Source: Archangium sp. (GTDB lineage Bacteria; Myxococcota; Myxococcia; Myxococcales; Myxococcaceae). From it: a stretch of 39,838 nt of DNA. This document shows positions 7,755 to 29,826 of the stretch, one piece after another. The stretch is from positions 1 to 39,838 of the forward strand of contig JAUYRZ010000127.1 in assembly GCA_030695565.1 (NCBI GenBank), written 5' to 3'. The notes beneath the pieces were generated by a model that saw only the letters and a program-made list of their open reading frames with translations, made no database searches and was not told the DNA's origin. Every line of letters begins with the position of its first letter. The first letter of the stretch is position 1. The translations under genes were made by a program, and so were the position numbers.

Positions 7755-8189
7755 CTAAGCCTTCTTCGTCTTCTTCTTCGGCACCGACGCTGCGCTCGCG
7801 CTCCCTCTCCCCCGAGGGGGAGAGGGTCGGGGAGAGGGCTTACCCTTCTTCTTCACCGGCTGACTCATCGCCATCCGATGAGCCTCCTCGAGCCAGGGCT
7901 GCAGCGCCTCGACGTCGTCGATCATCGTCTCAGGCATGGCGACCCAACCGCGCATGGTCTTGCCGGTGCCCATGGGATCGAACATCCCCGATCCCTCCAG
8001 CCCCTCCGCCGCGAGGAACCGGGCCTCGACGGGAAACCGCAGCAGAATCCGCCCGTCCCACACGATCGAATAGATGTTCGAGTTGGCGAAGAACGCATCG
8101 CTCCCGAACATCCTCCGCTCAGTCACCTCAGGGAGCTCCGCGCTGAGCTCAGCCACGAGCTCCTTCAGATGCGCGTTCAACGTGCTCAT
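7755..8189 (-). CDS. TfoX/Sxy N-terminal domain protein with repeat-invaded C-terminus
   Basis: 144 residues. Residues 1-108 match the TfoX N-terminal domain, with the typical EVTERRMFGSDAFFAN (21-36) and SIVWDGRILLRFP (41-53). This domain occurs in competence regulator Sxy/TfoX, but many standalone copies in other phyla have unknown roles. Its ATG at 8189 overlaps the stop of the TonB-like gene (ATGA), so the two are translationally coupled. The C-terminus is odd. A Lys-rich tail is split by residues 117-134, which are encoded by a REP-like element and read SPRPSPPRGRG. The Lys-rich pieces on both sides suggest a once continuous basic tail. Confidence 0.85.
   Translation of the reverse strand: MSTLNAHLKELVAELSAELPEVTERRMFGSDAFFANSNIYSIVWDGRILLRFPVEARFLAAEGLEGSGMFDPMGTGKTMRGWVAMPETMIDDVEALQPWLEEAHRMAMSQPVKKKGKPSPRPSPPRGRGSASAASVPKKKTKKA
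7802..7838. repeat. REP-like C/T-rich palindromic element, copy 2 (inside a CDS)
   Basis: CCCTCTCCCCC-GA-GGGGGAGAGGG core, a perfect 11-bp inverted repeat, followed by TCGGGGAGAGGG. It lies wholly inside the 3' end of the TfoX-like gene and is translated in frame on the minus strand. Confidence 0.9.
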
Positions 8190-9313
8190 TGCAGTGCAGG
8201 CGCACTCTTCACGCGCCACGCGTTGAGCAACCGCACGCGAACATCAGGGGGCTCCCAGGTGAACTGCCACCGGGTGCGCCAGCTCGAAGTCCCGAGCATC
8301 TTGTCGTCGTTGTCCGGGATGGTCCGAGCCACCTTGCGACTGAAGTGCAGCACCGACTCATCGAAGCGAGAATCACCCGAGCGTTCGATGATGCTCACGT
8401 CAGAGAGAATGCCGTTCGCGTCGGTGGTCACCTCGAGCACGGTGCGCAGGCGAGCGCGGGTGATGCGCTCCTTGATGTTCTCGCTCTGCGCGAGCATCTG
8501 CATCGAGCTCTCGCGGAAGCGTTGATCGTCGACGGTGGGCGACATCACGTTCTGGCTGGTCACGCTTCGGCCGAGCGGCGAGTCGCTGACCTTCTTCGAC
8601 GCCTCCGCCGAAGGGCCATTGTTGAACATGATCCCCGCCACGTCGCGCGCGATGTCGCCACCGCTCATCGGAGTGCGATCGATGGTCGACTTCGGCAGCA
8701 TCGTGCGCATCGCGTTCTCGTAGCGCTTGAAGTGATTGGGCACGTTGCCGACGCCGACGGCAGCCATGCCGACCTCCTGCTGGAGATCGTCGTTCAACTT
8801 CCGCGTGAGCACCTCGCCGGTGTACTCGTTGAGCGATCGGGGATCAGGCGCTTCACCGGGCCCGTTGCGAATCGTCGAGCCACGCACTGGCTCTTCGCGC
8901 CCGCCGGTTCCCAGCGACATCGCAAAGCCATCACTCGGCGTCAGGCTCGGGCGGGTGCCGATGGGCAGATCACCCCGCGTGCCGACCTGAGGTCCTGCCT
9001 CGACGACCGCGCTGCCTTGATCCGGCTGGCCACTCACCACGGGCGGAGCGACCTCGCTCACCTGTTTCTTCTTCTTCGGATCGACCTGCGTCTTCTCGAC
9101 CTTCAAAGGCGGCTGCGTCGGCGCAGGCTCCGGAGTGGGGGCAGGGCGCGTCTCCACCCAGGCCAGCTCCAGCTCCACCGGCTTGTTGCGCTGAAGCTGC
9201 GCAGGCTCGAGCAGGGCCAGAGACCAGAAGACCAACGCGTGCAAGACCACCGAGACGCCGATGAGCGTCAGGAGCCTCGAGCGATCGCGTTTGTCCTCCA
9301 CTCCTCTGCACAT
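8186..9313 (-). CDS. TonB-like energy-transducer family protein
   Basis: 375 residues. A short basic N-terminus is followed by one membrane helix (about 15-37). A Pro-rich periplasmic stretch (about 52-100, including a KKKK run) leads into a long variable middle. The C-terminal region (about 295-350) has the TonB-type strand pattern RTVLEVTTDANGILSDVSI with a following SGDSRFDES motif. TonB-like proteins couple inner-membrane energy to outer-membrane receptors; no ExbB/ExbD or receptor gene is nearby. The chosen start is the ATG at 9313. A GTG four codons downstream, directly after AGAGGA, is possible. It is divergent from the DNA ligase with a ~34-base gap and coupled downstream to the TfoX-like gene. 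Confidence 0.75.
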   Translation of the reverse strand: MCRGVEDKRDRSRLLTLIGVSVVLHALVFWSLALLEPAQLQRNKPVELELAWVETRPAPTPEPAPTQPPLKVEKTQVDPKKKKQVSEVAPPVVSGQPDQGSAVVEAGPQVGTRGDLPIGTRPSLTPSDGFAMSLGTGGREEPVRGSTIRNGPGEAPDPRSLNEYTGEVLTRKLNDDLQQEVGMAAVGVGNVPNHFKRYENAMRTMLPKSTIDRTPMSGGDIARDVAGIMFNNGPSAEASKKVSDSPLGRSVTSQNVMSPTVDDQRFRESSMQMLAQSENIKERITRARLRTVLEVTTDANGILSDVSIIERSGDSRFDESVLHFSRKVARTIPDNDDKMLGTSSWRTRWQFTWEPPDVRVRLLNAWRVKSAPALQ

Positions 9314-9347
9314 AACACGGTGGCGGAACCGCAGTAGAAGGCCGCCA

Positions 9348-10403
9348 ATGCTCCCTTTCCAGTCGCCTCTCGAGCCCATGCTGGCGGCTGCGGAGGAAGA
9401 AATTCCTGCCGGCGACGGCTGGCTCTACGAGCCCAAGTGGGACGGATTTCGCGCCATCGTCTTTCGCGAGGGCGACCGCCTGCACCTGTGCAGCCGCAAC
9501 GGCCAGCCGCTCGAGCGCTACTTCCCCGAGGTGGTCGAAGGCCTCAAGAAGGCGCTTCCGCCCGAGATCGTGGTGGACGGCGAGATCATCCTGCCCGGCG
9601 CCAAGGGCCTCGACTTCGAAGCGCTCTCGCAGCGCATTCATCCCGCGGCTTCCCGGGTCAACAAACTCTCGGTGGAGACGCCCGCGGGTTTCGTCGCCTT
9701 CGATTGTCTGGCACTGGGTGGCGAAGACCTGCGCGGTCTGCCCAACCAGGTGCGGCGTGAGAAGTTGATCGCGCTCTTTCAGGGACACGAGGGCTTCTTC
9801 GTCACCCCGCAGACCGTGAACCTGGAGACTGCCAAACAGTGGTTCCACGAGTTCGAAGGCGCGGGCTGCGATGGCGTGATCGCGCGCCGGCTCGACCTCG
9901 ACTACCGCCCGGGCGAGCGCGTGATGGTGAAGATCAAACACGGGCGCACCGCTGACGTGGTGGTGGTGGGGTATCGCGAAGGCAAGACGCCGGGCACCGT
10001 CGGTTCGTTGCTGCTCGGGGTGTACGACGAACGCGGCGAGCTGCTGCACATCGGTCACACCTCATCCTTCAGCGCGAAAGAGAAGAAGGCGCTGCGCGAG
10101 AAGTTGAAGCCGCTCGAAGCCGGTGCCCCGGTGTTCCCCGGCAAGCTCGAGTCGGCCCCCAATCGCTGGAGCAAAGGTCAGGAGAAGGCCGCCCCCACGC
10201 CGCTCACGCCCACCCTGGTCTGCGAAGTCCGCTACGACTACCTGCAGGGCACGCGTTTTCGTCACGCCTCGACGTTCCTCCGCTGGCGCGAAGACAAGGC
10301 GCCGAAGAGCTGCCTGTTCTCGCAGCTGCTGCCGCCCCATCCTTTCAGCCTCGCGAAGATCGTCGCGTTGAGCCCCACCAAAGCCCGTGTCACTCCGACC
10401 TGA
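9348..10403 (+). CDS. ATP-dependent DNA ligase (LigC/LigD-type)
   Basis: 351 residues: an adenylation domain (about 1-200) plus an OB-fold domain (about 210-330), the minimal two-domain form seen in bacterial LigC and in the ligase part of LigD. The nucleotidyl-acceptor Lys is K30 in EPKWDGFRA. Other nucleotidyltransferase motifs are FVAFDCLAL and GVIARRLD, and motif V is RVMVKIKHGRTADVVVVGYR. Such enzymes join nicks or ends in Ku-dependent end joining or repair. No Ku or polymerase/nuclease domain is in the window, so its pathway is open. The ATG at 9348 matches the family N-terminus. The last 17 bases overlap the next gene. Confidence 0.93.
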   Translation: MLPFQSPLEPMLAAAEEEIPAGDGWLYEPKWDGFRAIVFREGDRLHLCSRNGQPLERYFPEVVEGLKKALPPEIVVDGEIILPGAKGLDFEALSQRIHPAASRVNKLSVETPAGFVAFDCLALGGEDLRGLPNQVRREKLIALFQGHEGFFVTPQTVNLETAKQWFHEFEGAGCDGVIARRLDLDYRPGERVMVKIKHGRTADVVVVGYREGKTPGTVGSLLLGVYDERGELLHIGHTSSFSAKEKKALREKLKPLEAGAPVFPGKLESAPNRWSKGQEKAAPTPLTPTLVCEVRYDYLQGTRFRHASTFLRWREDKAPKSCLFSQLLPPHPFSLAKIVALSPTKARVTPT

Positions 10404-11788: not shown

Positions 11789-12931
11789 TCAGTAGGTGGC
11801 CGAGAGCGAGAAGCCCACCGCGGTGTTGTTGTTCGCCAACCCGGTCACGTCGATGAGCGGGAAGCGCACCGACTTGTTGTCGGCCGTCAGCAGGGGGGCG
11901 AAGTTGAACAGGTAGAGCGTGCCGCTGATCGAGTTGGTGAGGTTGAACGACAGCGAGACCGACGCGCTCTGGGTATCGCTGCGGCTCATACCCGTGCGAG
12001 CGACCGGGTTTCCGTTCGTGTCGCGCGTGGGAGGCGTGAACTCGTCCACCGTCGTCGCAGCCGCGTACAGGAATGACGTCTGCATGCCGTAGCCGAGCGT
12101 GAGGAAGATGCCATCGCGAGCGACCCAGGTGACGTTGAGTGAGCCCTGGAGCGCGAGGAAGGAGTTGTTGTTGTTGATGCCGCAGGCCGTCTCGCCGGTC
12201 CTGCACAAAACCAGCTGGTGTCCTGCGGGATCTTTCAAGGTGGTCGGCCGCACCACGCTCTGGCTGTTGGTGTAGAGGCCGATCGTTCCCAGCCCGCCGA
12301 AGTTGGCGATGATGGTGCCGATGGGCGTCTTGAAGTTCTTGTTCATCGACAAGCCGAAGCCCAGGCGGGAGATCAAGCCGGCGCCCCAGCTCTCGATGGT
12401 GGTGGGCACGATGACGTTGAACGAAGGGGTGATGACGATCCCCGTGTTCTTCTCCTTGATCAACGCGGGCATCGACAGCGCGACGCGGGCGTCAGACCAG
12501 CTCCAGCGGCGGCCGTTGGCTGCGTCTGGCAGCGTGTATTCGTAGCTGAAGCCCAGCAAGCCGAAGGGCTGAAAGCCGATCGAGAAGGCCTTGCCGAGCA
12601 AGCGCGTACGGTAAGAAATGAACGCGTTGATGTTCGCCGACAGGTTCGCGTACAGCTGCGGGTCGACGAAGGTGCCGAGCCCCAGCAGGTGGTCGACGCT
12701 GAAGCTGAAGAAGAACCCGCTGAGCATGGCGAGCTGCTCAGGCGTCAAGACGGCGGAGCCAGCTGACGCGGTGGCAGGAGCAGTCGACGTCGTGGTCGTG
12801 GCCGTGGCCGTGGCCGCCGGTGCGCCAGTCGCCGGGGCAGCAGGGCTCGCCGCAGGCGGAGTGGCCGGGGCCGTCTGAGCCATCGCCTGAACGGCAACCA
12901 GGAACACCACCAGCACAGTGAGACGATTCAC
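11789..12931 (-). CDS. Probable outer-membrane beta-barrel protein
   Basis: 380 residues. An N-terminal signal peptide (about 1-18, ending AMAQ) is followed by a low-complexity Ala/Thr/Pro stretch (19-60). The rest has alternating polar/hydrophobic patterns with many aromatic and Gly/Asn residues, ending in a beta-strand with terminal Tyr (SLSATY), the usual C-terminal signature of barrels. A clear GGAGG lies shortly before the GTG start. No enzyme motif. The exact family is not recognised; transport or structural porin-like roles are possible. It ends 13 bases from the convergent NFACT gene with no visible terminator. Confidence 0.7.
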   Translation of the reverse strand: MNRLTVLVVFLVAVQAMAQTAPATPPAASPAAPATGAPAATATATTTTSTAPATASAGSAVLTPEQLAMLSGFFFSFSVDHLLGLGTFVDPQLYANLSANINAFISYRTRLLGKAFSIGFQPFGLLGFSYEYTLPDAANGRRWSWSDARVALSMPALIKEKNTGIVITPSFNVIVPTTIESWGAGLISRLGFGLSMNKNFKTPIGTIIANFGGLGTIGLYTNSQSVVRPTTLKDPAGHQLVLCRTGETACGINNNNSFLALQGSLNVTWVARDGIFLTLGYGMQTSFLYAAATTVDEFTPPTRDTNGNPVARTGMSRSDTQSASVSLSFNLTNSISGTLYLFNFAPLLTADNKSVRFPLIDVTGLANNNTAVGFSLSATY

Positions 12932-13577
12932 GTAAACCTCCTACGACTGACGAGCCCGCGCATCAGGCAAGGTTCATGCCCTTCCGTCGAAGACGGCAAG
13001 GCTCTACGAAGCACCGGAATTGAGTCGGTTTTCGCCCGGTTCGAGGTCGACGCCGAGCGATTCACCACGCCAGCCCGCCGCCCGTTCGCCAGTCGACGAC
13101 CAGCGGTCGACAGGAAAACGGCATGCTGTTCCACGGGCGTGATCAAAGGACGGCGCACCTACCACAGCGGCCAGCGCGCGATCAACGTCCCCCCTGAAGC
13201 GGCTGCCCTGATTGATCGGGCCCGGAAAGCTGTGCTAGGGGCACGTTCCTTTCCTCGCCGTACCTCCGCTTCACCCAAGGTGCCGATTTGCTGGCGTTCC
13301 CGCTCACCTCCGCCGTCGCTCCGCTAACGCTCGGCGTTGGTGCTGCCACACCAGGGTGTTTTCTGTTGAGCCACCGCGGGCCCACTTTCGCAGCGAAATC
13401 AATGGCCTTCGCGCTCTCGACGGGGCGAAACCCCAACGGCACACAACTTGCGCTAGGGCCCGCGCCAACCCGGAGGTCTGCGTGAACGCATCGAACTCAA
13501 CACCGACCACCGCCTCTTCTTCCGCGCCTCGCGCTTCCTTTCGCCTCAGCCTTCAAGCTCTCACCACCGGAGAAATC
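12932..13577. other. Long gene-poor control region upstream of the metalloprotease operon
   Basis: About 645 bases between divergent genes. Short open frames on both strands look like chance products of high GC and have no recognisable family. It holds a possible promoter (13212-13241), a palindrome TTTCGC-A-GCGAAA (13386-13398), a small hairpin GGGG-CGAAA-CCCC near 13424-13436, and a second GCTAGGGC motif at 13452-13459. A strong GGAGG (13472-13476) sits just ahead of an in-frame GTG at 13482. No tRNA-like cloverleaf or known riboswitch was recognised. Confidence 0.6.
13212..13241 (+). promoter_or_regulatory. Candidate housekeeping-sigma promoter
   Basis: TTGATC (13212-13217), 18-base spacer, TAGGGG (13236-13241). 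The -35 is fair and the -10 poor but fits the loose, GC-rich promoters of this type of organism. If used, the leader before the metalloprotease would be over 300 bases. The same GCTAGGG word recurs at 13452. Confidence 0.2.
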
Positions 13578-16500
13578 ATGAACCGTCGCTCCACCAACTG
13601 GCGCTCACTGAGTGTCGCGATGCTCGCGTTGTTCGCGTTCAGCTGTGCGCAGATGAATGGCGACGTCGTTCGCATTCAGCCCAACGTCGTGCGCAAGTCT
13701 GACCTGCTCGACGGGCAGTGGTTCTTCCGCAACACCGTGACCTGGACGCCGTTCAACACCCAGTTCACCTTCCCCGGCCAGACCGGCAACATGGAAAAAC
13801 TGGTCTGGGAGATCCAGGAAGGCAACCTCGTCGGCTACCGCTCCTATGCGTACACGGTCGGAGCAGACTCGATCGTCGACCCCAACTCGAAGATCGCGGG
13901 CACCACGGGCAAGTACTGCGACGCCGCGGGCAAGTGCACCGGCGGCCAGAAGTACTACGGCGCCCCGGTGGTGGCCTTCCCCATCGTGAGCCACTTCGAC
14001 ATTCAGCGCGGCTACAACGCCGCCACGGGCGAGGTGAACAACGTCATCAGCGAGAACACCACCGACCGCTTCTGGAATCAGCGTGAGTACATCCGCGTGA
14101 ACTGGTCGACGAACGTGCTGAACAAGGCGTCGGGCCTCAACTGGGGCACCGTGCAGAACCCCCAGTCGGGCGTGACCAACTCGAACTGGATTCAGCCCAA
14201 CGAGCCCGGCAGCGACCCGTACGACTGGCCGACCTTCGAGTACAAAGACCCGGACGGGAAAGACGGCCCGCTCGAGGAAAAGCTCACCTACTTCGACGTG
14301 ACCGGCCGCTACATGGCCATGCCGGACTCGATCTACTTCGAGGGCTACGGCAACATTCCCCTCTGCTGGTTCGCCTCGGGCATCTACGACTGCAGCGCCA
14401 GCGAGATCCACATTCGCACCTCGATCGCCAAGGTCGACACCACCTGGTCGCGTGACTACGAGCCGCTCCAGTTCCCCAACGATCTGATGTCGTACTTCGG
14501 TTACTTCCGCACCGACCGCCTCAACTACGACCGCAAGTTTGGCTACAACGATCAGGCCGTCATCCGCCTGGCGAACCGTCACCGCGTCTGGAAGGAGTAC
14601 TACCAGAAGGCCGACGGTGAGGTGACTGACCAGCCCATCGCGATGGCCGCCCGCACGCCGGAGCCCATCAAGTACTACTTCACCCCTGCCTCGCGCATGG
14701 GCGGGGTCGAGCGCTACGACGAATTCTGGGAGCCGGGCCGCATCATCGAGCGCGACTACGACCGCGCCTTCCGCCGCGCCATCGGCGCCGCCCAGCAGAA
14801 GGATCCGTCGACCGTTCGCCAGATGTTCTACGTCTGCAACAGCCCGGTGAAGTCGGGCGATCCGGCCGAGTGTGGCAACGCGGGCTTCTCGCCGAAGATC
14901 GGCGACCTCCGCTACAGCTTCATCAACACCATCGCCGAGCCCGTCGCCAACGGCCTGCTCGGTTACGGCCCCAGCTCGGCCGACCCTGAGACCGGGCAGG
15001 TCATCTCGGGCATGTCGAACACGTACACCTGGGGCGTCGACCTGTACGGCCGCGACGTCACCAACTGGATCCTCCTGTTGAACAAGGAGAAGTCGACCCA
15101 GGACTACATCAGCGGCGTGGACGTGGCCGACTTCGTCAAGAACAACCCCACCTACAACATCAAGGGTATTCAGAAGTCGGGCCTGCTTCAGTCTGAGCTT
15201 CAGGGCATCTCGACCCGCAACGAAGAGACGAAAGGCGCCTGGGATCGTCCCACGCAGCGCATGGCCTCGGTCGTTCAGAGCATCCTGCGTGACAAGAGCA
15301 CCATCTCGTCGAAGGGCGACCAGCTGAAGAAGGCCGCTGACGAGCTGGCGAAGAACCCGGCCCTCGAGGCGGCAGTGCTCGACAACCCCGACGTGCAGAA
15401 CGACCTGCTCAACCTGCTGCCCCCGTTCGCTCGCGGTGTCGCCGCTCGTGACCCGAACTTCCTGCGTCAGGCCTCACGCTCGGTGCTCACCAACATCAAG
15501 ACCTCGCAGAACTGGGAGAAGCAGCGCATCGAGTGGCTGACGAAGAACAGCATCACCACCTTCGACTTCTACGACCGCACCTTGATCGGCATCGCCACCG
15601 AGAAGCTCAACTACCGCAACGCCCGCGTCGCGGCGCTGGTCAACGGTGGTGCAGGTCTCCTCGAAGTCGATGCCAAGCGCATCGCTGACGACGAGATCGC
15701 CAAGCAGGTTCGCCAGCAGGTCTGGCTCGCCACCTCGCTCCACGAGGCCGGTCACACGCTCAACCTGCGGCACAACTTCCAGGGCTCGTACGACGCGATC
15801 AACTACTTCGACGAGTACTGGGACATCCGCAAAGACACCATCACGGTGCAGCAGAACAACCAGGCGAAGCTGCCTCGCACCCCGGCCGATATGAAGAAGG
15901 CCGCCGAGGGCACTGAGGCGCAGCTCATCACCGGCATGCACAACCACGAGTACTCCTCGATCATGGATTACTCGGGCAAGATCTTCACCGACTTCAACGG
16001 CCTGGGTAAGTACGACGAAGCGGCCATCATCTTCGCCTACTCGGGTGATACGCAGCCCGGTTACGTCGAGGTGTTCGACAACGCGCGCAAGACCTCGAAG
16101 GTCATTCCGACCTCCGACGGCCTGACCATGACCATCTCGGGCGCCGGCGCCGACCTGCCCATGGTCAACGTCACCCACACCAACCCCAACATCCGCAACT
16201 ACACCGAGCGCTTCCACTACTCGACGGTGCCCCTGCACTTCGGCGAGGGTTCAGACGTCGTGTCGATCATGAACGACGGTCTGCTCAAGCTCCGCCAGCG
16301 CCGCTTGGCGAAGTGGAGCGACGTGATGGCCGACGAAACGCGCGTGCGTGATGCGCTGAGGGCCGACCCGACGCTGATCAACGACCCTGACCGCGCCGCC
16401 GGCGTGATCGGCAACGTGCAGCTGCGCGTGCCGTACATGTTCTGCAGCGACGAGTCGGCCGACGGCCCGGTGCTCTCGTGCAACCGTTTCGACCGCGGCC

Positions 16501-17873
16501 CCGACTACTACGAGATCACCCGCACCAAGCTCGAGGACTACTGGAACTACTACCTCGACACCCACTTCCGCCGCGACAGCGTCTTCTTCTCGGGCAACAG
16601 CGCGGTGGGCCGCACCTTCAACACCTTCTACACGGTGGCCAACTCCTACAAGCACTGGGTCTACGAGGTGTACCAGAAGAGCTCGCGCAATCAGGAGCAG
16701 GTCGCGCGTTACAAGCTCGACCCCATCCTCCAGGACTACTGGACGATGGCCGTGCTCGACGGCGTCAACCAGCACCTCAACGTGATGTCGGTGCCTCCTG
16801 ACGGGTTGTTCATGTACCGCAACCTGCGTGGTGGCCCCCGTTGGGACCTCATCAGCCAGGGTGAAGACTTCGACTACTTGAACCCCACCGGCCGCGCCGC
16901 GCTCGAAGAGCTCTACACCAGGCGCTTCGCCGCTCAGGACTTCATGGTCATCCCGCGTGGTCTGGGCCGCCGCATGTACAGCCGCTACGACTTCAAGTCG
17001 GGCTTCGGCTTCTGGAACCGCATGCTCGAGGCCGGTCACTACAACGACCAGGTCGGTGCGATGTTCGCGGCCGTCATCCCCGAGATCGACATCCAGGGCG
17101 TGGACATCACGGCCGACCAGGATCGGTACGCCATCCCGTACTACCTGACGTTCCGCGACGAGTTCCAGAGCACCTTCAGCTCGCTGTGGGCCAACGACGA
17201 AGAGAAGATTCGCCCCGTCGCCTACAAGGCTGTCAACGAGGTCAACGCCGTTCAGGACAGGGCCGCCATCGAGTGGCGCACCTACGTTCGCGGCACCGAC
17301 TTCTTCACGAACTTCAACTACCCCCGCGAGCGCGCGAACTGCGCGGCAGGTCAGCAGCCCTACCGCGACGAGTGCTGGGTTCCCAATCAGCGCGCCGCGC
17401 CTGCGAACATCCAGCTCACCTGGACCAGCCGCATCTACGGCCTGTTCCTGGGCATGGCGCTGTTCCGCGTGAACTACGACCTCGACTACGCCAAGGCCAA
17501 CCAGGTCTTCAAGTTGGGCTCGGGCGAGGCCTTCCAGGTCGCGGCCGGCTACCACACCGTCGAAGTGCCTGACGTCACCACCGGTCATCGCTACGCGGCG
17601 ATCGAGAAAGACGGCGCGCCCCCCAACAGCACCGGCGCCATTCGCATGGTCGACATCGCCAACCAGTACCTCGTCATGGTTCGCGACCCGGCCACCTGCC
17701 CGCTGCCCGACTACGTCTTCTTCCAGGGCTTCCAGTGCTTGCCGGCAGACCAGGCCAACAACCCCGCGCTCCTCGAGGACCGCCGCAAGTACTGGACTGA
17801 GATCTTCCAGGACTCGATTCGCGACCTCGGCCTGCAGCGCAGCATGTACCAAATCTACGGGAAGGCGTTCTGA
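13578..17873 (+). CDS. Giant zinc-dependent metalloprotease lipoprotein, metzincin type (paralogue A)
   Basis: 1,431 residues. Signal peptide 1-22 ends in FAFS-Cys23, a lipobox-like site, so it is probably an exported lipoprotein. The zinc motif HEAGHTLNLRH (H722, E723, H726, H732) is followed by NF, and a Met-turn SIMDY lies ~64 residues later (M796): together the metzincin signature. Asn729 replaces the usual Gly of HExxHxxGxxH, a substitution tolerated in some metzincins. About 700 residues precede and 630 follow the catalytic core; both flanks align with the next gene. The ATG at 13578 has GGAG six bases ahead; an in-frame GTG at 13482 with a stronger GGAGG would add 32 residues. Substrate and role (nutrition, predation, envelope processing) are not shown by sequence. 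Confidence 0.88.
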   Translation: MNRRSTNWRSLSVAMLALFAFSCAQMNGDVVRIQPNVVRKSDLLDGQWFFRNTVTWTPFNTQFTFPGQTGNMEKLVWEIQEGNLVGYRSYAYTVGADSIVDPNSKIAGTTGKYCDAAGKCTGGQKYYGAPVVAFPIVSHFDIQRGYNAATGEVNNVISENTTDRFWNQREYIRVNWSTNVLNKASGLNWGTVQNPQSGVTNSNWIQPNEPGSDPYDWPTFEYKDPDGKDGPLEEKLTYFDVTGRYMAMPDSIYFEGYGNIPLCWFASGIYDCSASEIHIRTSIAKVDTTWSRDYEPLQFPNDLMSYFGYFRTDRLNYDRKFGYNDQAVIRLANRHRVWKEYYQKADGEVTDQPIAMAARTPEPIKYYFTPASRMGGVERYDEFWEPGRIIERDYDRAFRRAIGAAQQKDPSTVRQMFYVCNSPVKSGDPAECGNAGFSPKIGDLRYSFINTIAEPVANGLLGYGPSSADPETGQVISGMSNTYTWGVDLYGRDVTNWILLLNKEKSTQDYISGVDVADFVKNNPTYNIKGIQKSGLLQSELQGISTRNEETKGAWDRPTQRMASVVQSILRDKSTISSKGDQLKKAADELAKNPALEAAVLDNPDVQNDLLNLLPPFARGVAARDPNFLRQASRSVLTNIKTSQNWEKQRIEWLTKNSITTFDFYDRTLIGIATEKLNYRNARVAALVNGGAGLLEVDAKRIADDEIAKQVRQQVWLATSLHEAGHTLNLRHNFQGSYDAINYFDEYWDIRKDTITVQQNNQAKLPRTPADMKKAAEGTEAQLITGMHNHEYSSIMDYSGKIFTDFNGLGKYDEAAIIFAYSGDTQPGYVEVFDNARKTSKVIPTSDGLTMTISGAGADLPMVNVTHTNPNIRNYTERFHYSTVPLHFGEGSDVVSIMNDGLLKLRQRRLAKWSDVMADETRVRDALRADPTLINDPDRAAGVIGNVQLRVPYMFCSDESADGPVLSCNRFDRGPDYYEITRTKLEDYWNYYLDTHFRRDSVFFSGNSAVGRTFNTFYTVANSYKHWVYEVYQKSSRNQEQVARYKLDPILQDYWTMAVLDGVNQHLNVMSVPPDGLFMYRNLRGGPRWDLISQGEDFDYLNPTGRAALEELYTRRFAAQDFMVIPRGLGRRMYSRYDFKSGFGFWNRMLEAGHYNDQVGAMFAAVIPEIDIQGVDITADQDRYAIPYYLTFRDEFQSTFSSLWANDEEKIRPVAYKAVNEVNAVQDRAAIEWRTYVRGTDFFTNFNYPRERANCAAGQQPYRDECWVPNQRAAPANIQLTWTSRIYGLFLGMALFRVNYDLDYAKANQVFKLGSGEAFQVAAGYHTVEVPDVTTGHRYAAIEKDGAPPNSTGAIRMVDIANQYLVMVRDPATCPLPDYVFFQGFQCLPADQANNPALLEDRRKYWTEIFQDSIRDLGLQRSMYQIYGKAF

Positions 17874-17905
17874 ACATGGAACTCCGCACTCTTGAGGGAA
17901 AGAAC

Positions 17906-20900
17906 ATGAACAGCCTCTTCCGCGCAGTCCTCCTCGTCACCACCGCGCTCGTCGCGGTGGGTTGTGGTCAGCCCGAGCTGATCGATCGCACCGGCCCGAA
18001 CTACATCAAGAAGTCCGACCTCCTCGAGGGCGCCTGGTACATTCAGGAGTCCATCATCGACGCCCCGAAGACGCCCAACGGAACGGCGACCATCGGCTAC
18101 GGCGGGAAGATGGAGAAGATCCGCTGGGAGGTGCAGGAGGATCTGCTCGTTGCCTACCGCTCCTACGAGATCGTGGCCGGCGCCGACCCGCGCGTCGACC
18201 GCGAGAACTCGAAGCTCGGCAAGGTCGTCTTCAAGGACGGCCGCCCGTACAAGGGCAACCCGGTCTTCGCGTACAGGATCCAGAGCCACTTCGATCGCCA
18301 GCGTCAGTACAACGCGGCGACCGGTGAGCAGCGCAACGTGCTCGTCGAGGACACTTCGGATCGTCCCTGGTACGAGCGGCAGTACATGCGGGTCAATTGG
18401 GCGCGCAACGAGATCACCAACTTCGATTCTGACTGCACAGCGGCCAATCCAGGCAGGTTCGGGTGTATCAACTCTGACCACCCCGGCCTCTACATTCGCT
18501 ACCTGACTAATCAAGACGAGCAGCCGCAAGACCAGGCGCTCGCGTTCACCAAGGGCGCCGACGGCAAGCTGAACTACTTCGATTGGACGACTCAGGCGAT
18601 CATTGACCCGCCGAGCATCCACTACGAGGGCTACGGCGAACTGCCGTTCTGCTTCTTCAACCCCACCTTCGACTGTGAGAGTGTTGACGTGCGCATTCGC
18701 ACCTCGGTGCTGAAGGTCGACGAAGCGGTCAGCAACGACTACGAGCCGCTCGTTTACAGCGACAAGCTGATGGTGAAGTTCGGCTACTTCCGCCAGGAGT
18801 CGTACAGCTACTCGAAGGACTACTACTACACGTACTCCGGCCAGCAGTTCTTCGCGATGCGCCACAACATCTGGCAGCGCGCGCATGACGCCCAGGGCAA
18901 CACCATCCCCGTGGTCGAGCGCAGCCTGCGCCCGATCGTCTATTACATGACGCAGAACACCCCCACGTACCTCGAAGGCGTGGCCGCTCAGCACCTCGCC
19001 ACCGGCCAGGGCATGGACCCCAGCCAGACCATCGAAGCCTCGTGGGATCGCGCCTATCGCCGCGCGGTCGCCGTGCCTCGTGGTCTCGAGGTCAGCGACG
19101 TGCCCCAGATGTTCTATGTGTGTGAGTCGCCCGTTCGTGAAGGCTCGCCCGCTGCCTGCGGCAAGCCCGGCACCTACGCGCGCATCGGTGACCTGCGCTA
19201 CCACATGATCCCCTACGTCGATCAGAACGCCGGCGGTCTGCTCGGCCTCGGCCCGTCCTCGATGGACCCCGAGACCGGAATGATCGTCAAGGCAGCGGCC
19301 AACGTGTACGGCCCGGGCCTCGACACCTGGTCTGGCAGCTCGCAGCAGGTCATCGACGTCGTCAGCGGTGAGCTCACCTTGAGCGAGCTCATCACCGGCA
19401 AGGACATCAAGGACTACGTCGCGGCGAACCTGAACCCCACCGACCCCCGCCGCCCGGCGAACGGGCCGTGGAACTCGCAGCAGCCCCTCGTCTCCGAGGC
19501 CACCCGGCCCACCGGTTCGTTCGGCAACCTCGATGGCAAGCTGAAGACCCTCTCGAACCAGTGGCGTCAGAACGGCAGCCTGCCGCTCGCCAAGGAGAAC
19601 CGCCGCGCGGTGGTCGACCAGCTGATCAAGGGCAACCCCTCACTCGAGGAAGAGCTCGTCAACCTGCCTGAGGTGCGCGTCGCCATTCAGTCGCTCACCA
19701 CCAACAAGGGCTTCCAGGCCAAGGTGCAGACCGACTCGGCGTTCTACCGCACGGTCGCGCGCAACCTGCTGCTGGGCAACGACCCCATCGAGGCGGCGAT
19801 CACCAGGTCGCGCAACACCCCTGACCCGAAGATCGGCTGCTTCTTCGAGTTCTCCTACAGCGACGAAGACTACTTCGGCCTCGCCCAGCGCAAGGTCGCG
19901 CTGCAGACCAGCCTCGTCACCAAGTTCAAGCAGCAGGGTCAGTCTGACGAGCTGGCGCTCACCAACGCGAAGGCCGAGGTCTACAACAGCCTGCGCCGCG
20001 AGGCCTACCGCTCGGTCACCGAGCACGAGATCGGCCACACGGTCGGCCTCATGCACAACTTCGTCGCCTCGGCTGACGCGCTCAACTACCACGACGGCTA
20101 CTGGGATCTCCGCAAGGAGACCATCGGTGTCAACGTCGGTGGCCGCCGCGTGTTGCCCGTGACGCCGCAGAACCTGTCGGATGCCGCCAAGCCCAACCAG
20201 CGCCAGCTCGACGCCTCGATGTACGAGTACACCTACTCGTCGATCATGGACTACGGCGCGCGCGTCAACGCGCAGAACCGCGGCACCGGCAAGTACGACG
20301 AAGCGGCGATTCTCTTCGCCTACTCCGGTGGTTTCGAGCCGGGCTGGGTCGAGGTCTTCAACGAGCTGCGCCCCAACTACGAGAGCCCCAACATCACGGT
20401 GCCGCTCGACAACCAGGCGAAGGTCTTCACCGTGCGCGGCGCGCAGGTCGAGATTCCGCTGGCGCACGTCGAGCACTACACCCCGGCCTCGTCGTTCTAC
20501 ACCGACAAGTACCACTACACGACGCTGCCCTTCCATTTCGCGGACCAGCAGCCGTCGTTCGAAGGCATGCTCGACCAGGGCATCTCGCGCATGAAGAACC
20601 GCTCGTTCCGCAAGTGGAGCGAGATGTCGGTTCACTACAAGCGCATCGAAGAGGAGCTCAAGAGGTTCAACCTCTCGCAGTCGGGTCTGTCTGAGAACGA
20701 CTACGCCCGCGCTCGCGACATCATCAACGCGGCCGGTGGTGCGAACGTGCCGGTCGAGGTGCCCTACATGTTCTGCTCCGACTACGAAGTCGGCGCGAAC
20801 CTGCTGTGCAACCGCAACGACCAGGGCGCCGACGTCTTCGAGATGACCTCGAAGTGGATGGAGCGCTTCAACCAGTCGTACGTGTTCTCGAACTTCCGCC

Positions 20901-22114
20901 GCGACCGCCTCATCTACTCGCCGGCGGCGGTTGCGTCGGGCAAGTTCGGCCGCTTCCTCGGGAACATCCCCAACGTCTACCAGCAGTGGCTCTTCAACAT
21001 CTTCTACCTGGCCAAGTACTACCAGCTGACCCCCGAGGAGATGGACAAGTTCTACGGCCTCGGCGACCCCATCTGGCAGAACTACTGGACGATGGCGGTG
21101 ATCGACTCGACGAACCTGCTGATGCAGCAGATCTCGATCCCGAGCGCCGGCTACCACGGCAAAAAGACCGACGGCAGCTGGGAGTACGTGCCCACGGGTG
21201 ACCCGCAGAACGTTCGTCTCCCGGCCGCGAGCGAAGCGGCGCTGAAGACGTCGCTCCAGAACCCCCTGAACGGTGGCTACTCAGACATCGCCTACGTGCC
21301 CCGCGGCCCCGGCCGCAGCATGTTCACCGTCTACGACACGTTCGGCTACGACGGCTTCTCGCGCGTCAACGAGGCCGGCCACTTCTGGGACGTGTACGCG
21401 GCGATGCTCGCGCTCACCACCAGCGAGACGAACTTCCTCGGCGTCGACCGCGGCTCCGATGCGCTGCGGTACTCGCTGCCGTACTACACGACGTTCAACC
21501 TCGAGCTGGCTCCGCTCTTCAACAACTACTGGACCCAGAACGTCTCGTACTACTCGCCCCAGATGGCCAAGCAGGCTGACGGCACGGCGCTCATTCAGCT
21601 GCCCACCTACATCCGCGCTCAGGACTTCATCCCCGGCTTCGTCTACCCCGCGGCCCCGGTCGTTCCGGTCGACGGTTCGGGTCAGCCGATGGTGATGTCG
21701 AAGGTGGCCCCCGTCTCGACCTGGAGCTCGCGGTTCTACGCTCAGGTCTGGTCGATGGCGTTCTTCACGGCCAACTTCAACCTCGAGTTCGCGAACTTCA
21801 ACCAGGTCTTCCGGTTGGGCTCGGGCGACAACCTCACCCCGGCGGCCGGCTTCTCGGTCGTCACCTACGAGGATCCGTTCGGCGGCGGCTACGTGTACGC
21901 GGCGATGAAGAAGACGGGCCAGCTGGTGCCCACCGCCGGTGTCGAGATGGTCGAGCGTGCGGCGCTCGCGAAGACCAAGTGGGAGGCCGCCCTGGCCGCC
22001 AACGCGCCGGTCGACGGCAAGACGGCAGCCCAGTGGGAGACCGACCTGCGTGGCTCGACCCGCACGCTGGAGATGATGCGCGGTCTGTACGACATCTTCG
22101 GCAGCGCCTGGTAG
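17906..22114 (+). CDS. Giant zinc-dependent metalloprotease lipoprotein, metzincin type (paralogue B)
   Basis: 1,402 residues. Signal peptide 1-19 ends VAVG-Cys20, a good lipobox. Zinc motif HEIGHTVGLMH (H707, E708, H711, H717), with the canonical Gly, and Met-turn Met781 in SIMDY. It is paralogous to the preceding gene over its length. Shared blocks include KKSDLL/RKSDLL, SHFD-QR-YNAATGE, YEGYG, YDEAAI-FAYSG, PYMFCSD and NYWTMAV. The frame is open to 17876, but the ATG at 17906 is followed directly by the signal peptide and has GAGGG upstream. The gap to paralogue A is 32 bases, and a terminator follows the stop, so the two form an operon. Likely anchored at the cell surface or periplasm. 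Function beyond proteolysis unknown. Confidence 0.9.
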   Translation: MNSLFRAVLLVTTALVAVGCGQPELIDRTGPNYIKKSDLLEGAWYIQESIIDAPKTPNGTATIGYGGKMEKIRWEVQEDLLVAYRSYEIVAGADPRVDRENSKLGKVVFKDGRPYKGNPVFAYRIQSHFDRQRQYNAATGEQRNVLVEDTSDRPWYERQYMRVNWARNEITNFDSDCTAANPGRFGCINSDHPGLYIRYLTNQDEQPQDQALAFTKGADGKLNYFDWTTQAIIDPPSIHYEGYGELPFCFFNPTFDCESVDVRIRTSVLKVDEAVSNDYEPLVYSDKLMVKFGYFRQESYSYSKDYYYTYSGQQFFAMRHNIWQRAHDAQGNTIPVVERSLRPIVYYMTQNTPTYLEGVAAQHLATGQGMDPSQTIEASWDRAYRRAVAVPRGLEVSDVPQMFYVCESPVREGSPAACGKPGTYARIGDLRYHMIPYVDQNAGGLLGLGPSSMDPETGMIVKAAANVYGPGLDTWSGSSQQVIDVVSGELTLSELITGKDIKDYVAANLNPTDPRRPANGPWNSQQPLVSEATRPTGSFGNLDGKLKTLSNQWRQNGSLPLAKENRRAVVDQLIKGNPSLEEELVNLPEVRVAIQSLTTNKGFQAKVQTDSAFYRTVARNLLLGNDPIEAAITRSRNTPDPKIGCFFEFSYSDEDYFGLAQRKVALQTSLVTKFKQQGQSDELALTNAKAEVYNSLRREAYRSVTEHEIGHTVGLMHNFVASADALNYHDGYWDLRKETIGVNVGGRRVLPVTPQNLSDAAKPNQRQLDASMYEYTYSSIMDYGARVNAQNRGTGKYDEAAILFAYSGGFEPGWVEVFNELRPNYESPNITVPLDNQAKVFTVRGAQVEIPLAHVEHYTPASSFYTDKYHYTTLPFHFADQQPSFEGMLDQGISRMKNRSFRKWSEMSVHYKRIEEELKRFNLSQSGLSENDYARARDIINAAGGANVPVEVPYMFCSDYEVGANLLCNRNDQGADVFEMTSKWMERFNQSYVFSNFRRDRLIYSPAAVASGKFGRFLGNIPNVYQQWLFNIFYLAKYYQLTPEEMDKFYGLGDPIWQNYWTMAVIDSTNLLMQQISIPSAGYHGKKTDGSWEYVPTGDPQNVRLPAASEAALKTSLQNPLNGGYSDIAYVPRGPGRSMFTVYDTFGYDGFSRVNEAGHFWDVYAAMLALTTSETNFLGVDRGSDALRYSLPYYTTFNLELAPLFNNYWTQNVSYYSPQMAKQADGTALIQLPTYIRAQDFIPGFVYPAAPVVPVDGSGQPMVMSKVAPVSTWSSRFYAQVWSMAFFTANFNLEFANFNQVFRLGSGDNLTPAAGFSVVTYEDPFGGGYVYAAMKKTGQLVPTAGVEMVERAALAKTKWEAALAANAPVDGKTAAQWETDLRGSTRTLEMMRGLYDIFGSAW

Positions 22115-22138
22115 TTCTCAGGCGAGGTTGAAACACCC

Positions 22139-22178
22139 GGCGCTCGACCCTGCAGTGGGGTCGGGCGCTGGTTGTTTT
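22139..22178 (+). terminator. Intrinsic terminator of the metalloprotease operon
   Basis: 11-bp stem GCGCTCGACCC/GGGTCGGGCGC (one G-T wobble), 7-base loop, then TGGTTGTTTT. It starts 24 bases after the stop of paralogue B. Confidence 0.88.
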
Positions 22179-22211
22179 CAGGGTGCTTCGCTTTCGCTAC
22201 AACGGGACCTC

Positions 22212-23066
22212 GTGCAGCTCGCGCCGCGTCAGTTGGATCTCTTCGGGAGGCTCTCGCGCCCGGCCAGCGTGCCCGCGCGCGCGCCGGTCGAGCCCTCGAA
22301 GCCGGTGCAGCCCGACCCGCCGCCCCTGCTCAAGGCCGTGCCGGTCGCGTTGCTCGAGGTGGCCGAACGCCTGCCCACCCGGCAGGAGACGTTGGCCCGG
22401 GCTCGCGCGCTGGCCGCGCGCATCGCCGAGGTGCTCGGCCCTGAGCTCAAGGTGCTGCTGACGGTGCACGACAACCGCTCGACGATGATCAGCTTCCGGC
22501 GCCAGCCGCCGCTGCTGAAGATCCGCGCGCACCACATGTTCCTCGATGCGCCGGTCGAGGTGGTGCAGTCGATCGCCGACTACGCCGGGCGCGGCAAGAC
22601 CAGCGCGGGCGTCGAGCTCGACGACTACATCGCCGCCCAGCAGAAGCGCATTCGGGCGATTCCCACCAAGCTCTCCCTGCTCGAGTCACGCGGGGCGTGT
22701 TTCGATCTGCAGGATCTCTTCGTGAGCATGAACGCCGCGCACTTCGACAACGCGGTGGTGGCCCGCATCGGGTGGGGGCGCAACACCAGCAAGCGGCGGC
22801 GAAAGTCGATCCGCCTGGGGGTGTACGATCACAAGGCGCGCGAGATTCGCATTCACCCCGCGCTCGACCGGCCCGACGTGCCGCGCTTCTTCGTGGAGTT
22901 CATCGTCTTCCACGAGATGCTCCACCAGCTCTTCCCCAGTGATCGCGACACCGGCCGGCACGTGCATCACCCGCGGGCCTTTCGTGATCGCGAACGCGCC
23001 TTCCCCAAGTACGCCGCGGCGATGGCCTGGGAGCGGCAACACCTGCAGGAGCTGCTGCGCCGCTAG
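22212..23066 (+). CDS. SprT-like zinc metalloprotein
   Basis: 284 residues from the chosen GTG at 22212 (VQLAPRQLDLFG). The frame is open to a TTG at 22128, but that part runs through the terminator hairpin, so the later start is preferred. The C-terminal region resembles SprT-like proteins: DLFVSMNAAHFDN, a basic RRRKSIRLGVYDHKAREIRI, then the metal motif HEMLH (H234, E235, H238) and a further His cluster HVHHPRAF. SprT/SPRTN-like proteins are minigluzincin peptidases, some acting on DNA-bound proteins; bacterial roles are poorly known. The N-terminal ~100 residues are Pro/Arg-rich. It ends convergent with the ASCH gene, separated only by a REP-like element. Confidence 0.75.
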   Translation: MQLAPRQLDLFGRLSRPASVPARAPVEPSKPVQPDPPPLLKAVPVALLEVAERLPTRQETLARARALAARIAEVLGPELKVLLTVHDNRSTMISFRRQPPLLKIRAHHMFLDAPVEVVQSIADYAGRGKTSAGVELDDYIAAQQKRIRAIPTKLSLLESRGACFDLQDLFVSMNAAHFDNAVVARIGWGRNTSKRRRKSIRLGVYDHKAREIRIHPALDRPDVPRFFVEFIVFHEMLHQLFPSDRDTGRHVHHPRAFRDRERAFPKYAAAMAWERQHLQELLRR

Positions 23067-27678: not shown

Positions 27679-29826
27679 TCAGCGAACGACGACTTGTTGA
27701 GATTCACCTTCAGCCGTGCGCACTTCGATCACGTGCTCACCACCGAGAATCAGCCGCGGGTGCTGCACCTGCAGCCGGCCCATCGAGTCGGTCTTCTGCC
27801 AGGTCGACCAGAGCCCCTTGTCGACCCGCCACGAGTACTGCTGACCGACGCGCGCCTCCAGTGACGCGGCGTCGTTCGACTTCACCGCCGAGCGAATGAG
27901 CTCCGACGAGACGTGCTTCGCCTTCGCCTTGCACATCTGACCGCCCGAGAGCAGCTCGGCGTACAGGCCGACGTGGTTGTAGGTCATGCTGCCCGACACC
28001 CGGCCGATGCCGCGTGCGCCGACCAGCTGCAGCTGAAAGCCGTTGAACGCGGGAATGGTGAAGCTGGTCAGCCCCGTGGCGAGCTGCGGCTCAGCCAGGG
28101 TGAGCAACGAAGGCACCAGGTTCTGCAAGACGGTCAGCGGCTCGGCCAGGATCTCCGAGTTCTTCACCCGCACGTTGGTGATGGCGCCCGTGAGGCTGCC
28201 CACCACCGGCGTCACGCCGGAGCACCCGTCGAGCGTCACACCCAGCGGCAGCGAGAGGTCGGCGGCCACGGTGAAGAGGCGCGCCTGGCGGTCATCGAGC
28301 AGCGCGTAGGCGTCGATCTCCAGGTCGCGCCAGTTGAGGCGCAGGAGCGGATCGAGCGGCCGGCCATCGGGGTCGACGGTGCCTTCACCCACCACCGCGG
28401 TGGGCGGCGTCACCGGCCTGATCACGATGCGCAGCGGCACGTTCTTGCCGTCGGTGAGCAGCCCCAGCGAAGGGAGCAGGGTGGCCAGCACGCCCGACTC
28501 GAGCGCGCTGACCGTTTCATTGCTGATCTCCAGGCACAGGGCCCCCGATTGCTGCGCGCGGAAGAGCACCTCGCTGATCATCTGCCCGGAGACCGAGATG
28601 CCCACGTCATACGGCGCGGGCGCGTCGAGCTCGAAGTCAGGCAGCGCCAACATCGGCGGGGCAGGGCGCGTCGCGGGCGCCACGCAGTCAGCCACCACCA
28701 CTTCTTTGGCGCCACCGCGCAGGCCCACCGTCAGACCGGTCGCGCTGGCCTCCGCGCTGCCACCCGCGCCGAAGGAGAGTTCGATGGCCGAATCGATCGG
28801 AGCGCCCAGCGTGCCGAGCGCCTGCCCGACCTCCAGCCGGCCCTCCGCGCCCAGCAGCCCGGGTACGCATTTCCCCGTCGCCGAATCGAGGCAGACCCCC
28901 GCATCGGGCTCGCAGCTCGAGGTCGCTACGCCGGCGCCGCCATCGAACGAGGGGCACTCACCCATCGGGCCGCACGAAGCGCAGTTGGCCTCGGCGAGCG
29001 CGTCGGTGATCTGCGTCTTGAGCGAGGCGGTGAGCTGGTTGATCAGCAGCGACTTCACGGCGCCGATGCGGGCGATGTCGAGAGCACTGCAGCCCTCGTT
29101 GAGGATCAGCATGTCGTTGGGATCGATGCAGTTGGGCGGCATCACGCTGCCCGAACACGCCTGCGTGTTGCCGATGTTCGCGACCTCGAGCGAAAGGAGC
29201 TGATCCCACTTCGTGTCGATGGCGAACTTGATGTCGAGCGCGAGGTCGGTGCTCGAAGGTGCCGCGCGCGCGGTGTCGAGATCGACGGTGAACTTCGCCC
29301 TGCCGTTGAAGAAGCACAGCGCCGAAGCGCCGCCGCCGCGCGAGGAGATCGGAATCGGTCCCGTCGCCACGGTGGCGGTCACCTTCGCTTCGAGAATGTC
29401 GGGCGATTTGGGGGCGAAGGTGAGCGAGGTGAAGTTGAGCGTCACGGCCTGGCCTACGTCGATGTTCGGGTCACACGTGCCGTTCATGCGGCCGCAGCTC
29501 TCTGCGTTGCAGCCCAGCGACCCCGTGTCGGCGACCGCCAACTGCACCACGGGAAATCCAAGGATGCTCGTCTGCTCGATGCTGCAGGGCACCGGAACCT
29601 GCAGCACGCCGCCGGGCGCGAAGAACGCGAGGATCGAGGCGGCATTGGCGTTGAGGGTGGTGAAGCCCTGCGACGACATGCGCGCGGCCCCCGCGGCGTT
29701 GAGCTTGGTACCCGTGTACGAACCCTGCGGGAGCGGCGTGAACCCGCCGCACGCACAACCCGACGGCGCCGTGCAGGCCCACAGGCCCGCCACACACCAC
29801 GCGAAGATCCACGAGCGACGAATCAT
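27679..29826 (-). CDS. Large lipoprotein, hypothetical
   Basis: 715 residues. The signal peptide ends LWA-Cys18, a clear lipobox, so an outer-membrane or inner-membrane lipoprotein is expected. A cluster of Cys residues near the N-terminus (24, 26) and Cys-containing loops in the first half suggest disulfides. The rest is beta-rich in appearance with repeated hydrophobic/Asp-rich strands. A short segment about residues 285-325 has CASCGPMGECPSF and SCEPDAGVC, like the Cys-rich secreted proteins of myxobacteria. The C-terminus (about 650-715) looks like a small beta domain (YSWRVDKGLWS...). I recognise no family; its overall pattern of long paired halves could be a lipid-binding fold, but this is only a guess. 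Confidence 0.7.
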   Translation of the reverse strand: MIRRSWIFAWCVAGLWACTAPSGCACGGFTPLPQGSYTGTKLNAAGAARMSSQGFTTLNANAASILAFFAPGGVLQVPVPCSIEQTSILGFPVVQLAVADTGSLGCNAESCGRMNGTCDPNIDVGQAVTLNFTSLTFAPKSPDILEAKVTATVATGPIPISSRGGGASALCFFNGRAKFTVDLDTARAAPSSTDLALDIKFAIDTKWDQLLSLEVANIGNTQACSGSVMPPNCIDPNDMLILNEGCSALDIARIGAVKSLLINQLTASLKTQITDALAEANCASCGPMGECPSFDGGAGVATSSCEPDAGVCLDSATGKCVPGLLGAEGRLEVGQALGTLGAPIDSAIELSFGAGGSAEASATGLTVGLRGGAKEVVVADCVAPATRPAPPMLALPDFELDAPAPYDVGISVSGQMISEVLFRAQQSGALCLEISNETVSALESGVLATLLPSLGLLTDGKNVPLRIVIRPVTPPTAVVGEGTVDPDGRPLDPLLRLNWRDLEIDAYALLDDRQARLFTVAADLSLPLGVTLDGCSGVTPVVGSLTGAITNVRVKNSEILAEPLTVLQNLVPSLLTLAEPQLATGLTSFTIPAFNGFQLQLVGARGIGRVSGSMTYNHVGLYAELLSGGQMCKAKAKHVSSELIRSAVKSNDAASLEARVGQQYSWRVDKGLWSTWQKTDSMGRLQVQHPRLILGGEHVIEVRTAEGESQQVVVR

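Follow-up and report, generated by a model that had tools for sequence, protein, structure and literature searches.

In the literature, no described function was found for the family of DUF4953, DUF5117 and DUF5118 proteins called Met-zincins, and one paper uses the term Met-zincin as a general class name. Among 12-stranded outer-membrane channels, that of the Fap system is coupled with a protease (FapD) needed for secretion (PMC5557850), and a studied COG4313 channel lets polar solutes through poorly, hydrophobic ones being its presumed substrates (PMC4493636). Here, we describe two adjacent genes, A and B, that encode candidate metzincin lipoproteins in a 39,838-nucleotide stretch of DNA from Archangium sp. 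(assembly GCA_030695565.1, contig JAUYRZ010000127.1, positions 1 to 39,838, forward strand; the whole stretch is called the window), together with a linked gene for a predicted outer-membrane barrel. Nothing specific on this family or on barrel-metzincin pairs in Myxococcota was found in the literature, nor any earlier report of a channel partner of these proteases. Judging from sequence, A and B are probably active Met-zincin endopeptidases anchored in the outer membrane and forming a paired set with a dedicated 12-stranded channel, a reading to which we give a probability of roughly 0.55. The features of the gene pair are as follows.

13578-17873, + strand: protease A (P0001), a predicted 1431-residue lipoprotein Met-zincin; stop-free open reading frame (ORF)
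13644-13646, + strand: predicted lipid-bearing Cys23 of A (signal end ...ALFAFS-C23)
15741-15773, + strand: zinc motif of A, HEAGHTLNLRH (residues 722-732)
15954-15971, + strand: Met-turn of A, SSIMDY (residues 793-798)
17874-17905, + strand: 32-bp gap between A and B
17906-22114, + strand: protease B (P0002), a predicted 1402-residue lipoprotein Met-zincin; stop-free ORF
17963-17965, + strand: predicted lipid-bearing Cys20 of B (signal end ...ALVAVG-C20)
20024-20056, + strand: zinc motif of B, HEIGHTVGLMH (residues 707-717)
20237-20254, + strand: Met-turn of B, SSIMDY (residues 778-783)
22137-22171, + strand: hairpin of 16 pairs 3' of B, resembling an intrinsic terminator

An earlier note made from these letters had described a tandem pair of paralogues of about 1,400 residues that share blocks along their whole length, and the two products indeed align end to end with 33% identity and 49% similarity. 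Its further claims of a metzincin-type catalytic core, lipid anchoring and duplication are upheld: the full zinc motif and Met-turn are present in both proteins, approximately 700 residues flank the core on either side in each (600-700 had been given), and both signal ends fit a relaxed lipoprotein pattern, the strict L-[AST]-[GA]-C being found in neither. The operon-like arrangement that it had proposed also appears sound, given the short gap and the strong hairpin past B (folding energy -38.4 kcal/mol, z -4.1), which is followed by a T-rich, imperfect tail. For A, the ORF finder also offered a longer frame from a GTG at 13356, because the start region of a lost barrel gene (see below) continues in frame into gene A; this start has no homologue support, and homologues start at the lipoprotein signal.

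The functional sites were examined across 100 relatives. The three zinc histidines are retained in all 100, the catalytic glutamate in 99, and the Met-turn [STA]-[ST]-x-M-[DE]-Y in nearly all, while the lipobox is found in 95 of 96 members, its +2 residue usually being Ala or Gly and never Lys. Because histidines, glutamate, Met-turn and lipobox are kept across relatives, these features of A and B are not due to chance. An inactive paralogue, whether A or B, is ruled out by the intact active-site residues, and both genes appear to be copies with an intact active site; a simple secreted protease is ruled out by the lipobox in nearly the entire family. The lone glutamate-less member (L120:8412-12467) carries HAFGH in place of HEFGH and is possibly a pseudo-enzyme. 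Position 8 of the zinc motif is Gly in 82 relatives and Asn in 12, A among them; by analogy with the M43 family, where Asn for Gly is known among some homologues, one of which has a solved structure (PMC3890501), the replacement in A would be tolerated as in other metzincins. In Myxococcus xanthus, Lys at +2 sorts lipoproteins to the inner membrane and Ala at +7 to the extracellular matrix (PMC3222651), and this rule predicts an outer-membrane location for both lipoproteins, A (CAQMNGD) and B (CGQPELI); the surface display suggested in the earlier note would be one possible arrangement there.

The earlier note had asked for a family search, and this search uncovered a homology that the note itself had missed. 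At the curated Pfam cut-offs of 24.2 bits for DUF4953 (PF16313) and 27 bits for DUF5117 (PF17148), B matches DUF4953 with 32.6 bits, and A scores 23.6 bits as a single protein, slightly below the cut-off, and 26.4 bits once neighbouring in-frame matches are summed; the matched stretch covers only 25-30 residues around HExxH. DUF4953 was matched by 32 of the 32 representative members scanned (E<=1). The DUF5117 model found no match in A, B or G000 and only a weak one (E 0.0074) in 1 of the 32 members. When a profile of 100 relatives was compared by hhalign with six canonical DUF5117-DUF4953 metalloproteases, an alignment with E=1.7e-21 and a probability of 99.4 was obtained over residues 257-465 of B, outside the zinc motif; a second, colinear alignment covers HExxH, the Met-turn and G-x-[YW]-D and is not significant by itself. 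Twenty column-shuffled profiles gave E>=0.24, and no control, a reversed profile and an unrelated barrel profile included, scored better than E 0.17. Thus, A and B are distant relatives of the DUF5117-DUF4953 Met-zincins, and their DUF5117 homology is detectable solely by profile-profile comparison. On plasmids from Bacteroides and Segatella (L126, L127), a SusC/RagA transporter gene lies 3' of a canonical DUF4953-type protease gene, which constitutes a second, distinct pore-protease neighbourhood. One further feature sets the present family apart.

19331-19975, + strand: mainly helical insert of about 200 residues (~476-690 of B), placed after the DPETGMI strand and before the HExxH helix; missing from canonical DUF4953 proteins

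Lying near the active site, this insert has diverged the most between A and B (17% identity, against approximately 40% in the two preceding domains). Its fast divergence would fit a different substrate preference of A and B, without showing it.

A structure was predicted for residues 21-1200 of B with AlphaFold2 from 87 family rows (pLDDT 85.9, pTM 0.89). In this model HExxH sits at the end of a long helix, and the insert includes some low-confidence stretches. With regard to the metzincin fold expected in the earlier note, the three top VIA-align matches are all metzincins, namely astacin (3vtg, Z 5.3 over 149 residues at 4.2 A) and ADAM17 (9q7y, Z 5.2; 8snl, Z 4.7), with PAPP-A at rank 5 (8a7d, Z 4.0), and the metzincin alignments cover both halves of the interrupted catalytic domain. 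On the other side, all these Z-scores are below 8, and Foldseek with the whole 1180-residue model returned nothing significant, so the fold evidence is supportive and not proof alone. The N-terminal domain (model residues 11-252) shows only a weak likeness, with Z of 3-5, to small barrels of the PsbO and lipocalin kind. A sequence search of the PDB with P0002 gave no match, and MMP-1 is matched weakly near the motif (E 0.013).

The linked barrel gene was absent from the earlier note and is identified here.

11789-12931, - strand: predicted outer-membrane barrel of 380 residues, divergent from the pair; member of a family usually found directly upstream of A

Its product consists of a signal peptide, a disordered linker of approximately 45 residues rich in Ala, Pro and Thr, 12 predicted membrane strands and a C-terminal Tyr, and it is the sole barrel match at E<=0.01 in the genome of the window. 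Typical members have about 330-440 residues from the start codon; they too begin with a signal peptide, followed by a low-complexity linker, and end in a strand of the outer-membrane type. The predicted model of the window barrel (pLDDT 75, pTM 0.71) has 12 long membrane strands, and the solved folds closest to it are the COG4313 channel 4rl8 (Foldseek E 1.4e-8, Z 18.7) and FapF (Foldseek E about 5e-8, Z 17.6). By sequence, FapF was the top match in the PDB, without significance (E 0.23), and PF13557 was matched at E 0.04 in 1 of 28 members only, so that sequence homology to that family was not found. A TonB-dependent transporter of the SusC type, with 22 strands and a plug, is not indicated, as the model has no plug and there is no Pfam TonB-receptor match. 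An ORF near the barrel gene (window 8186-9379, - strand) matches a TonB C-terminal domain (PF13103, 22.1 bits, cut-off 22); a 12-strand barrel is not known to need such a protein.

Linkage was counted by targeted profile searches in 61 checkable loci, each having 1.3 kb or more of sequence upstream. In 27 of them, the first protease gene is immediately preceded by a barrel gene of the same orientation, which holds for 17 of 22 tandem loci and 10 of 39 single-gene loci; as the loci are related by descent, these counts are not independent events. In a few loci (L089, L091, L109) the barrel lies directly downstream, and 16 of the 18 pair-bearing genomes contain one. A third family copy in the genome of the window (L007:5739-10469, contig C112, 1576 residues) has its own barrel, which overlaps the protease start, and the same order of barrel then protease is found in a one-contig genome (G040). 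In G040, a second family ORF of approximately 1689 codons (L138:12138-17204) lies about 3 kb 3' of the barrel-linked one, with no barrel of its own nearby.

Of 195 Myxococcota genomes, 79 carry the protease family, and 60 of the 90 genera sampled are represented. It is missing from the sampled genomes of many genera within the window's own family, and a general role in predation is therefore not favoured by this distribution. By their record titles, the closest relatives come from Myxococcaceae or Archangiaceae bins, and several family hits carry vague record titles only. A match titled "Bdellovibrio" (L104:1664-5839) first suggested spread to Bdellovibrionota; its genome, G195, appears identical to G065, the same match being found in both at identical contig positions, and the genome set places G065 within the window's phylum, so L104 is likely a mislabelled bin and no spread beyond Myxococcota is claimed. 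In the tree, the A and B proteins each make up a clade of 16 rows; the two clades are sisters with a support of 100, and the linked pairs of this lineage always follow the order A-B with a gap of 32-75 bp, most commonly 32. Across most pairs of the family the gap is 26-59 bp, in some up to 149 bp. A recent duplication is ruled out, since the sister clades predate the sampled lineages, and A and B derive from one old duplication whose copies were co-inherited. Further tandem pairs (L081, L086, L092, L095, L101 and L103; also L067, L071, L112 and L119) are placed elsewhere in the tree and thus represent separate duplications. Tandem pairs have formed repeatedly next to the barrel, which suggests that it is important for a channel to have two different proteases.

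The barrel gene of the window does not stand in its usual place, and the DNA ahead of gene A retains a trace of another one.

13278-13486, + strand: pre-barrel remnant, a 70% match to L051 3247-3455 that ends at the start codon of the L051 barrel

Homology resumes at window 13555-13569, near gene A (matching L062 4661 and L051 4646), and the coding region of the usual barrel is gone between 13486 and 13555, as it is in L062. The segment 13278-13578 thus has the form of a deletion scar with the barrel's start region retained. The barrel now present is approximately 36% identical to the usual barrels, whereas A and B are 80-89% identical to their counterparts in these relatives; in G003, the orthologue of this barrel (78% identity) lies on another contig; and in the barrel tree the window and G003 barrels pair up apart from those of the nearest relatives, with moderate support. 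Taken together, the scar, the low identity, the G003 orthologue and the tree show that the ancestral barrel was deleted and that a divergent homologue, inverted, now adjoins the pair.

The reading of A and B as a channel-linked protease pair builds on the homology, intact active sites, lipoboxes, predicted barrel fold, gene linkage and old, co-inherited duplication established by computation. From these we infer catalytic activity, an outer-membrane location and physical contact with the barrel; joint action of the barrel, A and B is suggested by the linkage of their genes. A and B would be exported through Sec, lipidated and retained in the outer membrane, where they would act in the envelope as a pair alongside the 12-stranded channel. 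With their differing substrate-facing inserts, the enzymes may cut polypeptides beside the channel, through which the products, or polypeptide chains, may then cross the outer membrane. That the two proteases and one channel form a complex in which cleavage is coupled to polypeptide passage, an undescribed protease-channel machine of Myxococcota, is a more tentative idea, which we consider possible and rather doubtful. Through the channel link, what was an anonymous "metalloprotease" becomes a module that can be tested. Several observations weigh against the preferred reading. Besides the modest metzincin Z-scores and the lack of a significant Foldseek match for the large model, 29 of the 39 single-copy loci lack a detectable barrel immediately upstream, which means that not every member requires one, and the ancestral barrel was lost in the window's sub-lineage, the divergent one being inverted here or located on another contig (G003). 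The swap speaks against a rigid and highly specific interface between barrel and proteases and, with the barrel-free single-copy clades, against an obligatory, highly specific complex.

Among the other explanations, nutrient scavenging survives best, as a possibility of clearly lower standing than the paired, channel-linked proteases. Here, outward-facing lipoproteins would digest external proteins and the 12-stranded channel would import peptides or hydrophobic products, so that the module would be similar in function to a SusCD-type unit working without TonB. This could explain why the nearest barrel fold is a COG4313 uptake-type channel and why canonical DUF4953-type genes adjoin a SusC/RagA transporter gene in two cases, one from Bacteroides and one from Segatella, and the cysteines that are at least 90% conserved in family alignments fit an extracytoplasmic protein. 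However, the barrel lacks a TonB plug, the COG4313 precedent passes polar solutes poorly (PMC4493636), and many genera in the window's own taxonomic family lack the proteins.

Less probable still is a role in secretion or maturation, in which a FapF-like barrel would export a polypeptide or the proteases themselves, and the proteases would process the exported chain. FapF stands alongside COG4313 as the nearest fold and is the top, though insignificant, PDB sequence match, and the Fap system offers a precedent for a 12-stranded channel with a protease required for secretion (PMC5557850). Yet neither a cargo gene nor a C39 protease or a chaperone could be recognised beside the pair in the window or among recurrent neighbours, and the conserved operon comprises only barrel, A and B. 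An envelope quality-control function, modelled on the role of BepA, is similarly unlikely: outer-membrane proteases facing the periplasm would trim or clear barrel proteins, and the linked barrel would be a client or sensor. The gene linkage to a barrel and the predicted outer-membrane sorting without a matrix-export signal (PMC3222651) agree with such a function, but the patchy spread over 79 of 195 genomes is unlike that of a housekeeping factor, several diverged copies occur per genome, and the barrel has been swapped in the window's lineage. Finally, that these are non-proteolytic binding proteins whose zinc site is kept for structure only, as their large size, extensive non-catalytic regions and the glutamate loss in L120 might suggest, is very improbable given the catalytic glutamate in 99 of 100 very divergent members.

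Two neighbouring genes were also noted. The gene after B (window 22128-23066, + strand) encodes FHEMLHQLFP and HVHHPRAFRDRERAFP motifs and has no Pfam match at 1e-3; its product may be an SprT-like zinc protein. Its C-terminal RERAFP...LLRR motif recurs in ORFs just 3' of B in L046, L047, L049, L054, L059 and L062. A 715-residue ORF (window 27679-29826, - strand) likewise has no Pfam match at 1e-3, and similar ORFs lie downstream of the pair in L051, L053, L056 and L061.

Compared with known systems, A and B share with the solved metzincins (astacin, ADAM, matrixin and pappalysin; clan MA(M)) the HExxHxxGxxH motif and the Met-turn, but their catalytic domain is split by the insert, and A has Asn for the motif Gly. 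With the DUF5118-DUF5117-DUF4953 proteins they share the colinear blocks PIxYY, GDLRY/DxRYN, DPxTGEI, HExGHxxxLxHNF, SxMDY and G.[YW]D. However, members of the present family have approximately 1250-1900 residues (mostly 1300-1500) against 810-880 in the canonical proteins, and approximately 245 residues rather than about 45 separate the DPETG strand from the HExxH helix. They also have a longer stretch before the Met-turn and an extra long C-terminal region, and they often occur in tandem pairs with a linked 12-strand barrel. They thus represent a new and more elaborate branch of a protease family that is known but has no described function. The barrel is 12-stranded with an N-terminal segment ahead of strand 1, as in FapF and the COG4313 channels, but it accompanies metzincin lipoproteins, not fap or degradation genes. 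Like SusCD-type units, the locus encodes an outer-membrane pore together with a large lipoprotein; in contrast to them, the pore has 380 residues, 12 strands and, in the model, no plug, and the lipoprotein is a predicted enzyme.

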